Shown here: in pieces, positions 11,173-33,624 of the stretch | Numbering within the stretch: the first letter of the stretch is position 1 | How the letters are laid out: each line of letters starts with the position of its first letter | From: Bacteroidetes/Chlorobi group bacterium MS-B_bin-24 | GTDB taxonomy: Bacteria; Bacteroidota; Ignavibacteria; Kapaibacteriales; UBA2268 | NCBI GenBank assembly: GCA_003731685.1 | Contig: RCNO01000021.1 | Span: 2,808-42,654 of the forward strand | Direction of reading: 5' to 3' | DNA length: 39,847 bases | Made by a program: the position numbers and the translations under genes | The notes under the pieces: model-generated | The model's database searches: none | Seen by the model: the letters and a program-made list of their open reading frames with translations, nothing else | What the model was told of the DNA's origin: nothing

Positions 11173-12237
11173 ATGTTCGAAAAAATTCAATCATTGCTGG
11201 GCAACGATGCCGAATATCTTTTAGGCTTCTCTAATCCCAAAGTTCCAAAGGAAATGTTAACTCTCCCCGGACCGGATTTTATCGATAGAGTTTTCGCAAA
11301 CTCAGACCGAAATAATCGTGTCCTTGCCAATTTACACAGGCTTTTCAACCACGGACGACTTGCAGGCACCGGCTACCTTTCGATTTTGCCTATCGACCAA
11401 GGTGTGGAACATTCTGCTGGTGCAAGTTTCGCTAAAAATCCAATTTACTTCGACCCGGAGAATATTGTTAAGCTTGCAATCGAAGGCGGATGCAACGGCG
11501 TTGCCTCGACTTTTGGCGTTCTGGGTATGGTCGCTCGCAAATATGCCCACAAAATTCCCTTTATTGTTAAAATCAATCACAATGAACTTCTTACTTATCC
11601 AAACAAATACGACCAAATACTTTTTGGAACAATCGAAGAAGCGTATAATATGGGCGCTGTTGCAGTTGGAGCCACAATTTACTTCGGCAGCCCCGAAAGC
11701 AACAGGCAAATAGTCGAAATTTCCGAAGCTTTCGCTTATGCACACGAACTTGGTATGGCTACCATCCTTTGGTGCTATCTGCGAAATTCCGCATTCAAAA
11801 AGGACAAAGATTACCACGTATCGTCAGACTTAACTGGCCAAGCAAACTATCTTGGAGCAACAATTCAAGCGGACATCATCAAGCAAAAATTACCAGAAAA
11901 TAACGGCGGCTATCTTGCATTAAACGCCGAAGGTAAATCCTATGGAAAATATGACAAAAGAATGTACTCCGAGCTCACTTCTGAACACCCAATCGACCTT
12001 TGCAGATACCAAGTGGTTAACAATTTTATGGGCAAAGTTGGGCTTATCAATAGCGGCGGTGCTTCGGGCGAAAACGATTTAGCCGAGGCAACCAAGACTG
12101 CTGTAATCAACAAGCGCGCCGGTGGTATGGGATTAATCTCGGGAAGGAAGGCTTTCCAAAAACCGATGAACGAAGGCATTCAGCTTTTGAATACAATCCA
12201 AGACGTTTACCTTTGCAAAGAAGTTACCATTGCGTAA
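11173..12237 (+). CDS. fbaB: Class I fructose-bisphosphate aldolase (FbaB/DhnA type)
   Basis: '[20 protein letters not shown]', '[12 protein letters not shown]', '[13 protein letters not shown]'; start at MFEKIQ with RBS GGAGGAG. Confidence 0.88.
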
Positions 12238-12245
12238 ATAAACTC

Positions 12246-12286
12246 TGCCTCACTCCTGTCCAATTTTGGGAGTGAGGCAATTTTGT
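12246..12286 (+). terminator. Terminator downstream of the aldolase, in the convergent gap with dsrO
   Basis: Perfect 11-bp stem TGCCTCACTCC/GGAGTGAGGCA followed by ATTTTGTAT. Confidence 0.7.
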
Positions 12287-12302
12287 ATATAAGGATTAAA
12301 AT

Positions 12303-13067
12303 TTACACGAGATAAAACACTTCCGGGCTGGTTCCCAATTCAGGTTTTCGCCGTATTGAAAATCTTTCGGAAAGCACTTGTCGAACCTCGGAGCCGGGGT
12401 CTTCGAGGTCGCCAAAAATCAATGCTTTCGACGGACAAGCTTCTACACAGGCGGGCATCATCCCTCGGGCTAATCTTTCTGCACAGAAAGTACACTTTTC
12501 AACCACACCACGAGTACGAGTTGGAAATTCAGGATTCTGCTCTTTTATAAAAGGCCTTGGGTCACGCCAATTGAAACTTCGTGAACCATAAGGGCATGCA
12601 GCAACACAATACCGACAACCAATGCACCTATGCCAATCCATCATCACAATCCCATCTTCACGCTTCCAAGTTGCTTGGGTGGGGCACACATTCGTACACG
12701 GAGGATTATCACAATGATTGCAAAGAAGTAGCACCGTGGAAAAATTCATTCCTTTCGGCAAAAATTCATTCTCCTGGGTAATGAAAGCATTTCTAAATTG
12801 TTCTTTCCAAATCCATTTTATTTCGTCTTTGGGATTGTCCAATTTTGGCACATTATGGTAAGAATGGCAAGCTTCGATACACTTGTTGCAATTGGGATTC
12901 TGCTCGCATTTCTTCACATCGATTGCCATTGCCCAACGATGGGCTTTCAACCCTTGCTGGGGATGTTCCACAACAGTTTGTGAGATAGACTCATAGGTCC
13001 ATTTCCCAGCAAGAGCAATACCTCCAGCAAAACTCACTATCTTCAAAAAGTTTCTTCTATCAATCAT
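12303..13067 (-). CDS. dsrO: DsrO-like periplasmic Tat-exported ferredoxin subunit of the Dsr complex
   Basis: Tat motif DRRNFLKIVSF; four Cys-rich clusters (CEQNPNCNKCIEAC, CNHCDNPPCTNVCP, CIGCRYCVAACP, CTFCAERLARGMMPACVEACP); start at the internal ATG with AGGAGG and ATGA overlap with dsrJ. Confidence 0.9.
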   Translation of the reverse strand: MIDRRNFLKIVSFAGGIALAGKWTYESISQTVVEHPQQGLKAHRWAMAIDVKKCEQNPNCNKCIEACHSYHNVPKLDNPKDEIKWIWKEQFRNAFITQENEFLPKGMNFSTVLLLCNHCDNPPCTNVCPTQATWKREDGIVMMDWHRCIGCRYCVAACPYGSRSFNWRDPRPFIKEQNPEFPTRTRGVVEKCTFCAERLARGMMPACVEACPSKALIFGDLEDPGSEVRQVLSERFSIRRKPELGTSPEVFYLV

Positions 13068-13474
13068 TTTAAGGCCTCCTTTGGTTGAACGTGACAATCC
13101 CAGCAATATGGCTTTACTTGGAGATAATTATGGCACTGGTCGCAGAAATTCTTTTTGTCGCTATGACACTTCAAGCAAGTCAAAGTCAGGCTCATTTCAA
13201 GCTTCTGTCCATTATGCGTCAGCACAACTCCGTTTCGAACAACGTAGCGCATATTCAAACGGACTACACTATCGCGCCAATAATTGAGCAAATCCATATG
13301 GTAATGATTCATATAATCTTTATCGTCGATACATTGCCGTGCATCAGTGGGATAAACCAGTTTAGGCTTTACTTTGCTTTGGGCAGAAGACAAATTGAGC
13401 CAGATAGGCATTGTAAAAAATGCAATTCCGATTACTATACCCAAAATAATTTTCCATCCATCGTAAATTTTCAT
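13064..13474 (-). CDS. dsrJ: DsrJ triheme cytochrome c subunit
   Basis: N-terminal TM anchor; three CxxCH motifs (CLKCH, CDQCH, CWDCH); 'CIDDKDYMNHYHMDLLNYWRDSVVR'. Confidence 0.92.
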   Translation of the reverse strand: MKIYDGWKIILGIVIGIAFFTMPIWLNLSSAQSKVKPKLVYPTDARQCIDDKDYMNHYHMDLLNYWRDSVVRLNMRYVVRNGVVLTHNGQKLEMSLTLTCLKCHSDKKNFCDQCHNYLQVKPYCWDCHVQPKEALK

Positions 13475-15084
13475 TGGTTTTCCTCCTCTTTTAACAAAGG
13501 ATTAAGTCGCAAATCAACTTCACGGGGCTTTTCCCCAGTCATAATCAATGCATTTCCAACCATTTCGTGAACTCCACCAACTTCGAGACCAGGTACCCAG
13601 AAATCAAAAAGCGGTGGGAGATTGGCTTTATCGATTGCGCAGATACACAAGCAAATGTTCACCCCGTATTTATCTTTGACATATTTTGCTGCGTTTGCTC
13701 GCGGGAAACCTCCCCGCATCCGCATTTCAAAATTCTCTTCGGTTCCTAAGCCAGCGCCACTACCACAGCAGAATGTCTGCTCTCGAATCGTATTATCGGG
13801 CATCTCGGTGAACTTCCTCATAACATTTTTAATTATGTACCTCGGCTCTTCGAGCAAGCCCATTCCCCTGGAAGGATTACAGGAATCGTGGAATGTAGCG
13901 TGCCAATGGTCATTACGGCTTGGGTCGAGTTTTAACTTATTATGATAAATCAAATCGGCAGTAAATTCACAAATATGAACCATTTTCGTCGACTTAGCAT
14001 TTTCGAAAACTGTTCCTGTGATTGGGGACTTCGGAACTTCGAGGAAATCCGCTGGACCATTCATTGTATCCATATATTGATGAATAACACGCCACATATG
14101 TCCGCATTCCCCGCCCAATATCCATTTTACTTTTAGCCTTTTTGCCTCGGCATAAATCTTATGGTTCAATCGTTTCATTAAGTCGTGTGAAACGAACGAA
14201 CCGAAATTTCCACCTTCGGAAGCATAAGTACTGAATGTATAATCCAGTCCTATCTCGTGAAAGAGCATTATGTAGCCCATCAAAGTGTAGTAGTGCGGTG
14301 TTCCAAAATAATCTGCCGATGGTGTAACAAAAAGAAATTCTGCCCCTTTCTTGTTAATCGGTATCTCTACACGAATTCCTGTGATTTCTTCGATGTCGGC
14401 TGCTGCCATTTCCAAACTATCTTTCATACCATGCGGCTGAACCCCAAGATGATTCCCTGTTCTATATGAGTTTTTTACGGGGGTCATTATCCAATCGATA
14501 TTGACGCCAATTAGATTCATCAAGTCCCGTGTAAGAAATGTAATCTCGGCTGTATCAATTCCATAGGGACAGAAAACGGAACATCTTCGGCACTGGGTAC
14601 ATTGATAGAAGTAATAGAACCATTCGCGAAGAACATCAAATGTCAGCTCCCGAGCGCCAACCATTCTACCCATAATCTTACCTGCCGTTGTGAACTCACG
14701 GCGATAAACAGAGCGTAGCAATTCTGCTCGGAGAACTGGCATATTTTTGGGGTCGCCCGAACCAAGGAAGAAGTGGCATTTATCGGCACAAGCACCGCAG
14801 CGAACGCAAATATCCATAAAGATTTTAAGTGACCGATATTTTTCCAATCGCTCCCGCAAACCCTCGAGAATTATCTCCTGCCAATTCTCAGGCAATTTCC
14901 AATCGGGGTCGGTCGGTTGCCATTTCCTTGGGTTCGGTTGGTCAAGATAAATCAATGCATCTTCGCTTCCCGCATAATTAAATGTTCCCTTTTGAAATTC
15001 AACAGGAACATCCATCCAGTTTACAAACTTGGGCTTGTAAGTTACATTCTTTAAAAGTTCCTCTGGTTTTATCTTTATCGACAT
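13471..15084 (-). CDS. dsrK: DsrK, HdrD-like iron-sulfur subunit
   Basis: 'CVRCGACADKCHFFLGSGDPKNMP', 'CTQCRRCSVFCPYGIDTAE', CCG-type 'TFHDSCNPSRGMG' and 'EQTFCCGSGAGLGTEENFEMRMRGG'. Confidence 0.95.
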   Translation of the reverse strand: MSIKIKPEELLKNVTYKPKFVNWMDVPVEFQKGTFNYAGSEDALIYLDQPNPRKWQPTDPDWKLPENWQEIILEGLRERLEKYRSLKIFMDICVRCGACADKCHFFLGSGDPKNMPVLRAELLRSVYRREFTTAGKIMGRMVGARELTFDVLREWFYYFYQCTQCRRCSVFCPYGIDTAEITFLTRDLMNLIGVNIDWIMTPVKNSYRTGNHLGVQPHGMKDSLEMAAADIEEITGIRVEIPINKKGAEFLFVTPSADYFGTPHYYTLMGYIMLFHEIGLDYTFSTYASEGGNFGSFVSHDLMKRLNHKIYAEAKRLKVKWILGGECGHMWRVIHQYMDTMNGPADFLEVPKSPITGTVFENAKSTKMVHICEFTADLIYHNKLKLDPSRNDHWHATFHDSCNPSRGMGLLEEPRYIIKNVMRKFTEMPDNTIREQTFCCGSGAGLGTEENFEMRMRGGFPRANAAKYVKDKYGVNICLCICAIDKANLPPLFDFWVPGLEVGGVHEMVGNALIMTGEKPREVDLRLNPLLKEEENQ

Positions 15085-15085
15085 A

Positions 15086-16087
15086 TTACTCCTCCTTTTC
15101 TACTGGAATACCTGCAGCTTTCATTTTTTCACGAAATTCATCTTCATATTCTTCGTAAGTATGAACCGCAACGACTGGATTCCAAGGATTGATGTGTCGC
15201 TTCATTCGATTGTTATTGGCTAAATTTCGTGTTGGGCTCATAAATATTCCACCCAAATGAACAAGCTTGCTCATTGGGAAATAAATCAGCAAGGTACAGA
15301 CAAATGTGAAATGAATCATAAACAATGGGCTAAGTTTGTTCAGCAGTTCATTGCTTATTGGTTGAAAAGATAGAATCGACACTGCAAATTCTTTAACAGC
15401 AACCAAATCCGTCTTCAAAAAATATCGCATCAAAACCCCTGTTACAGCAATACCCAAAATCAACAATAAAGGGAAATAATCGGAAGGGAGCGAGACAATT
15501 CTAACTTTTGCATTGAAGATTCTGCGCAGGAAAAGATATGTTAAAGCAACAAGTATCGCAACGTCGGTAATGTAAATTATCGGCAATCCAACTTGGAAAA
15601 AGCCATCAATATCTTGAAGAAACCCAACAAAGAATGGTATTGGCTCGGTAAAGAATCGAAAATGCCGTAAGAAAATAATTAAAAAAGACCAATGGAAAGC
15701 CAAACTGAAAAACCACAGCCATTTGTCAACGGAATAAACCAAGCGGTCATCTTTTAGCGAGGCTTTCGTGTTTCGGAAAAGAGAACGGAAGAAGAGCACT
15801 TCCAACGCCATTCTGCCCAAAGTTCCTAAAGCTGAACTTGGGTTGTCCAATTTGTTCTGCTTAATCCAAGGCAAGGATTTCTCCTGCCCGCAAGTTGTAG
15901 TAATTCGGAAAGGTACAGGCGAACGAGCCCAACGAAGCACACGAACAATAAGCCCAATAGCAAATACTGCCAAAGCTACATATGGCAGAATCACTCCAAA
16001 AATAAATTTCAAAAAGGGCAGGACTCCTGCCACCCATCCCGCAAGCAATATCACGACAGTAACCAAAAGCGATAGCTGAATACCCAT
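15086..16087 (-). CDS. dsrM: DsrM, NarI-like cytochrome b membrane subunit
   Basis: 'FRITTTCGQEKSLPWIKQNKLDNP', 'FHWSFLIIFLRHFRFF', 'YFPMSKLVHLGGIFMSPTRN'. Confidence 0.95.
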   Translation of the reverse strand: MGIQLSLLVTVVILLAGWVAGVLPFLKFIFGVILPYVALAVFAIGLIVRVLRWARSPVPFRITTTCGQEKSLPWIKQNKLDNPSSALGTLGRMALEVLFFRSLFRNTKASLKDDRLVYSVDKWLWFFSLAFHWSFLIIFLRHFRFFTEPIPFFVGFLQDIDGFFQVGLPIIYITDVAILVALTYLFLRRIFNAKVRIVSLPSDYFPLLLILGIAVTGVLMRYFLKTDLVAVKEFAVSILSFQPISNELLNKLSPLFMIHFTFVCTLLIYFPMSKLVHLGGIFMSPTRNLANNNRMKRHINPWNPVVAVHTYEEYEDEFREKMKAAGIPVEKEE

Positions 16088-16088
16088 A

Positions 16089-16631
16089 TTACTCTTCTAT
16101 TTTGTTGGCAAAACTTTCACCCAAAATGTTATCCATCAACTTGTATTTTTCGTTAAGTTTTTCCAAAAACTTACCATAACGATTCCGAATCTCTTCCCTT
16201 TGAATTTGGGCTATTTTCTCCCGAATGTTGATAAAAGACTCGAATGCTTTTTCCGAGATTGTCATATAGTAATCAACATCAGTCCTATACGATTCTACTT
16301 TGGTATCAGTGGGCAACGAGTTGTTGAACTTATCCCACAAAAATCGAAATATATTTGCCGATTGCCAATAGGACAAATCTTGAACAGCTCGAATTTTGAG
16401 AATATCCTCCAACGAATCGTTGAACTCGGTGCAATCTATTTCACTGGAACAAATCAACGAGAGCAATTTCCCAAGATTTTGATAAAGATTGTATCCCACA
16501 GGGTTTGTAAAAGGTTCCTCTTTTTTGGAAATGAATTTTTTCGAGGGTTCAGGATAATGGTCAATTAACCACAGGAACCATTCCTCTAATAAGTTTTCTT
16601 TGTTCTCATTTAAAAAATCTTTAAAATTCAT
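16089..16631 (-). CDS. RsbRD N-terminal-domain-like protein preceding dsrM
   Basis: 'LLEEWFLWLIDHYPEPSKKFISKKEEPFTNPVGYNLYQNLGKLLSLI' pattern resembles RsbRD_N proteins; 1-nt gap to dsrM. Confidence 0.7.
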   Translation of the reverse strand: MNFKDFLNENKENLLEEWFLWLIDHYPEPSKKFISKKEEPFTNPVGYNLYQNLGKLLSLICSSEIDCTEFNDSLEDILKIRAVQDLSYWQSANIFRFLWDKFNNSLPTDTKVESYRTDVDYYMTISEKAFESFINIREKIAQIQREEIRNRYGKFLEKLNEKYKLMDNILGESFANKIEE

Positions 16632-33601: not shown

Positions 33602-33624
33602 GTAGGGGCGAATAATTATTTGCA
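33602..33624. repeat. Possible decayed palindromic repeat, GTAGGGGCGAATAATTATTTGCAC
   Basis: GCGAATAATTATTtGC is an inverted repeat with one mismatch pair, with GTAGGGG on the left only. Confidence 0.35.

Follow-up and report, generated by a model that had tools for sequence, protein, structure and literature searches.

The window analysed here, a stretch of 39,847 nucleotides from Bacteroidetes/Chlorobi group bacterium MS-B_bin-24 (contig RCNO01000021.1), contains a dsr operon in which the usual place of dsrP, the gap behind dsrO at 12238-12302, is empty. This raises the question of whether DsrP is encoded elsewhere in the genome or whether the organism makes a four-subunit complex in which DsrJO lacks its membrane partner, the two options that the initial annotation had put forward. 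The former is correct: a full-length, Dsr-type DsrP is encoded on another contig (C43), and with a Dsr-type dsrP in the genome the latter is not supported. DsrMKJOP here is probably a complete complex of the ordinary kind. Adjoining genes for DsrO and DsrP are usual for DsrMKJOP without defining it, and here the two genes do not adjoin.

Results

The dsrTMKJO operon and its 3' junction

The four dsr open reading frames and the RsbRD_N open reading frame were all intact and lay on the minus strand in the order dsrT-dsrM-dsrK-dsrJ-dsrO (Table 1). DsrM, DsrK, DsrJ, DsrO and DsrP were identified by scores above the cut-offs of curated NCBIfam equivalog models, which all four such proteins encoded in the window exceeded. 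Three CxxCH motifs (CLKCH, CDQCH and CWDCH) were found in the DsrJ translation, and DsrO carried a Tat-type signal (RRNFLK) and ended in SPEVFYLV followed by the stop codon at 12303. Judged from the sequence, the true start of dsrO is probably the ATG at 13067, which would overlap the dsrJ stop by 4 nt. In reductive-type clusters dsrT adjoins dsrM (PMC10504309; PMC6338057), and the RsbRD_N protein encoded 5' of dsrM is, by its position, the DsrT of the literature.

Table 1. Features of the dsrTMKJO operon in the window and of dsrP on contig C43 of the same genome.
Feature	Position	Strand	Identification
dsrT (RsbRD_N-domain protein; putative regulator; operon gene 1)	16089..16631	-	Pfam PF14361, 41 bits (cut-off 24.3)
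dsrM (cytochrome b-type membrane subunit)	15086..16087	-	NF038037, 490 bits (cut-off 300)
dsrK (cytoplasmic Fe-S, HdrD-like subunit)	13471..15084	-	NF045796, 728 bits (cut-off 400)
dsrJ (periplasmic cytochrome c)	13064..13474	-	NF038038, 143 bits (cut-off 100)
dsrO (periplasmic Fe-S protein)	12303..13106	-	NF045797, 315 bits (cut-off 200)
Bidirectional terminator hairpin between dsrO and the convergent aldolase gene	12238..12302	-	11-bp stem, -20.2 kcal/mol, z -4.7 vs shuffles
dsrP (full length, 383 aa)	C43:5793-6944		NF045798, 465 bits (cut-off 350)

A convergent class I aldolase gene ends at 12237, 65 nt from dsrO. The open reading frames and the predicted fold bore out the earlier statement that this gap holds a terminator and leaves no room for dsrP: because the 65 nt after dsrO contain only a single strong hairpin, dsrP is missing at this locus. 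The predicted hairpin can serve both dsrO and the aldolase gene.

Location of dsrP and the sulfate-reduction pathway

The draft genome searched (G000) comprises 2.60 Mb in 109 contigs and is 98.8% complete, with an estimated contamination of 4.66%. A whole-genome search with the Pfam NrfD model returned four proteins, one of which is the Dsr-type DsrP of C43, and this protein clusters in the tree with the DsrP of close relatives. According to the initial annotation, its case for an absent DsrP would fall if a dsrP of this kind, grouping with Dsr-type DsrP, lay elsewhere in the genome; the gene at C43:5793-6944 is such a dsrP. The NrfD protein of C61 adjoins an Fe-S protein and a molybdopterin-oxidoreductase-like open reading frame, and those of C4 and C15, as read from the surrounding genes, adjoin ActB-like Fe-S proteins, as in alternative complex III. 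From their neighbours, these three proteins appear to belong to other systems.

The search for dsrAB, dsrC, aprAB, sat and qmo, which the initial annotation had recommended, located them on C41 and C1. A single series of genes in one direction on C41 starts with sat, aprB and aprA, continues with two small genes, qmoC, dsrA, dsrB, dsrD, dsrN, a 145-aa gene and a gene for a DsrL-like NAD(P) oxidoreductase, and closes with dsrC and another pair resembling dsrM and dsrK. A QmoB-type FlpD domain is encoded on C1. Family models identified sat, aprB, qmoC, dsrAB and dsrC; aprA was identified by its FAD domain beside aprB, and dsrD, an 84-aa open reading frame between dsrB and dsrN, by size and position only. 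The genome thus carries the dissimilatory sulfate-reduction pathway (sat, aprAB, qmo, dsrAB, dsrC and dsrD), with Qmo seen as qmoC and the QmoB domain. The second pair lies directly 3' of dsrC on the minus strand (L008:27-2688) and corresponds to dsrM-2/dsrK-2 of Thiel et al. 2019 (PMC6338057). Its DsrK2 scored 299 bits, under the DsrK cut-off of 400, and sub-threshold DsrK paralogues of this kind are found in most DsrK-bearing relatives.

Distribution of the split among relatives

In the DsrK-bearing genomes of the class, DsrP was located by a separate search. dsrO and dsrP were unlinked in every one of the six genomes from two sister genera of the same family, namely G000, G406, G437 and G448 of the window's genus and G506 and G526 of its sister genus, and each of the six (6/6) has a dsrT homologue in the same position as in the window. 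G448 is a complete, single-contig chromosome (CP058732.1, "Ca. Kapaibacterium sp. Ch6") with dsrK at 2,633,452 and dsrP at 2,493,065, so that dsrO and dsrP are ~138 kb apart; in G406 both genes lie on one 340-kb contig, ~144 kb apart. The recurrence of the split in a complete chromosome and in two genera excludes the assembly error at 12.2-12.3 kb that had been considered for the window.

The family's remaining genera (G441, G452, G477, G550 and G495) had linked dsrO and dsrP, and 111 loci, some of them from the same genome, were scored as linked. In these loci dsrP mostly starts 11-20 nt past dsrO, with a few gaps of up to 68 nt. A Chlorobi locus scored as split (L036) proved to contain a run of N over dsrO. 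Because dsrP adjoins dsrO in these genera and in almost all further loci, linkage is ancestral and the split is derived. One further family member, G529, has a stretch (L190; G529:C68:13000-25251) with a DsrK 44% identical and a weak DsrM match, in which dsrJ, dsrO and dsrP were not detectable; the best DsrK match in a search of that genome holds two internal TGA stops.

Conservation of the detached DsrP

At 124-125 of the 126 near-invariant columns the detached DsrP has the conserved residue, against a leave-one-out mean of 98% for linked sequences. When the numbering of DsrP1 was matched by position, without a reference sequence, 19 of the 20 quinone and ion-path residues of DsrP1 (PMC8076601) were identical; the exception, S204, is T in the detached DsrP and likewise in 8 of 42 linked sequences. 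Values of dN/dS were 0.013-0.037 for the split pairs with computable dS and 0.016-0.039 for linked DsrP pairs, a rough comparison, as many split pairs were saturated at synonymous sites. These sequence comparisons indicate that the detached DsrP is under strong purifying selection, with its constraint unchanged. Sequence searches with DsrP or DsrO found no solved DsrMKJOP structure.

History of dsrP

The six split genomes (g1+g149) were grouped at a support of 100 in both the DsrM+K+O tree and the DsrP tree, and next to this clade in both trees stand G495 and then the four-genome genus g144 (with L099). Because the two trees agree on the split clade, DsrP has followed the same line of descent as the other subunits, and dsrP is, on this phylogenetic reading, a vertically inherited gene relocated out of the operon.

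All four congeners have dsrP in divergent orientation to one and the same ABC ATPase gene, and the genes directly beside dsrP are not the same in the two split genera; outside the dsrP/ABC-ATPase pair, C43 also departs from the congeners on both sides. In G000 the larger region around dsrP could thus be rearranged or misjoined, which leaves the congeners unaffected. Most likely, dsrP moved once, in the lineage leading to the two sister genera, and local rearrangement followed. The alternative to this simplest reading, two separate moves, is less likely but would fit the differing neighbours of dsrP in the two genera and the differing outer flanks in G000.

Several further observations were made around these loci. 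Three genes past the ABC ATPase near dsrP (L009:8128-13137) have homologues near dsrO in G406 (L171:666-5670), with identities of 68, 73 and 50%, suggesting that the surroundings of both dsr loci were rearranged repeatedly. A single-copy gene for a secreted-type protein is located 3' of dsrP in G000 (L009:4714-5445) and 3' of dsrO in G506 (L175:7199-7897), with 43% identity; its shared presence may be coincidental. An ancestral dsrO-dsrP-X order based on this gene (C43:4714-5445) was considered and dropped, the gene not being beside dsr in linked relatives. The palindromic repeat GTAGGGGCGAATAATTATTCGCCCCTA occurs just 3' of dsrP (C43:5634-5660) and at about ten further sites of the genome, with 0 for the reversed control, and a half-site is present at 33603-33612 of the window; it looks like a dispersed REP-type element. 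Since GTAGGGGCGAATAATTATTCGCCCCTA was absent in intact form from all loci retrieved from other genomes, it does not explain the older shared move and was rejected as the agent of that move. A comparison of the regions upstream of dsrT and dsrP for a common regulatory site yielded no convincing shared dyad; each has an AT-rich block conserved within the genus.

Discussion

We are highly confident that the window carries an ordinary reductive-type dsrTMKJO(P) operon whose dsrP moved out and was kept elsewhere, and that a complete five-subunit DsrMKJOP is made. Most likely dsrP left before the two sister genera diverged, in the ancestor that they share, and it would have been kept as its own transcription unit. 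In the resulting complex, DsrM would oxidise menaquinol and DsrK would hand electrons to DsrC trisulfide, while the periplasm-facing DsrJ and DsrO would reach the quinone pool via DsrP made in trans. Such trans assembly and electron flow are likely in the light of established work on DsrMKJOP; gene content and the location, conservation, selection and tree of dsrP were computed here.

That a true four-subunit DsrMKJO works without DsrP, the dsrP elsewhere serving another complex, is very improbable. It would fit the unlinked dsrP, a transcription unit of its own in six genomes, and the second DsrMK pair beside dsrC, by which DsrMK variants coexist here, but the histories of DsrP and DsrMKO coincide, the conservation of DsrP and the selection on it are unchanged and no other periplasmic Fe-S gene was recognised beside dsrP. 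Moreover, in metatranscriptomes of a related hot-spring population at Mushroom Spring, the 20 sulfate-reduction genes were expressed most highly at night, dsrP among them, like the other dsr genes (PMC6338057). Only a slim chance is given to the related idea that a separately transcribed dsrP lets the ratio of DsrP to DsrMKJO vary, with DsrP-free DsrMKJO under some conditions such as the daily oxic-anoxic shifts of mats.

An artefact, whether a misassembled junction or a dsrP contig from a contaminant, might be suspected in a draft of 109 contigs with 4.66% estimated contamination; it is less probable still, as the split is also seen in the Ch6 chromosome and the 340-kb contig of G406, and dsrP is paired with the same ABC ATPase throughout the genus. 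Least probable of all is a xenologous replacement, in which dsrP would have been exchanged for a foreign copy instead of being moved. The position of dsrP, unlike that in all linked relatives, would agree with it, but the split clade lies within its own family in the DsrP tree, as it does in the MKO tree.

Compared with canonical dsrTMKJOP operons (G441, G452, G477, G550, G495; Chlorobiaceae; Desulfobacterota), G000 has the same five subunits, families and conserved residues, and its dsrT lies 5' of dsrM as in these five relatives within the family; the difference is that dsrP is a separate unit in G000 instead of directly following dsrO. Some Gram-positive and archaeal sulfite or sulfate reducers have DsrMK-only systems, without dsrJ, dsrO and dsrP. 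The DsrMK core is common to these systems and G000, whereas all three further genes were found in G000. The split arrangement is already known since Thiel et al. 2019, who reported dsrTMKJO with dsrP elsewhere in "Ca. Thermonerobacter thiotrophicus" (PMC6338057). The order dsrT-dsrMKJO is identical in that organism and G000, and both have a sat-aprBA-hyp-hyp-qmoC-dsrABDN-hyp-dsrL-dsrC-dsrM2-dsrK2 cluster (PMC6338057); qmoAB lies at another place in that organism, as does the QmoB-type domain in G000, and no essential difference between the two was found. This study adds the confirmation in a complete chromosome, the direction of the change, the finding that only two sister genera show the split among the genomes sampled, and the unchanged constraint on DsrP.

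The host is a hot-spring-type Kapabacteria sulfate reducer. Its dsrP is a clean example, with little at stake, of a subunit gene that left a strongly conserved respiratory operon and kept its constraint, and it is a warning that operon content alone is no ground for calling a subunit missing. The lineage is also a possible natural case for asking whether DsrP must be made in cis with DsrO.
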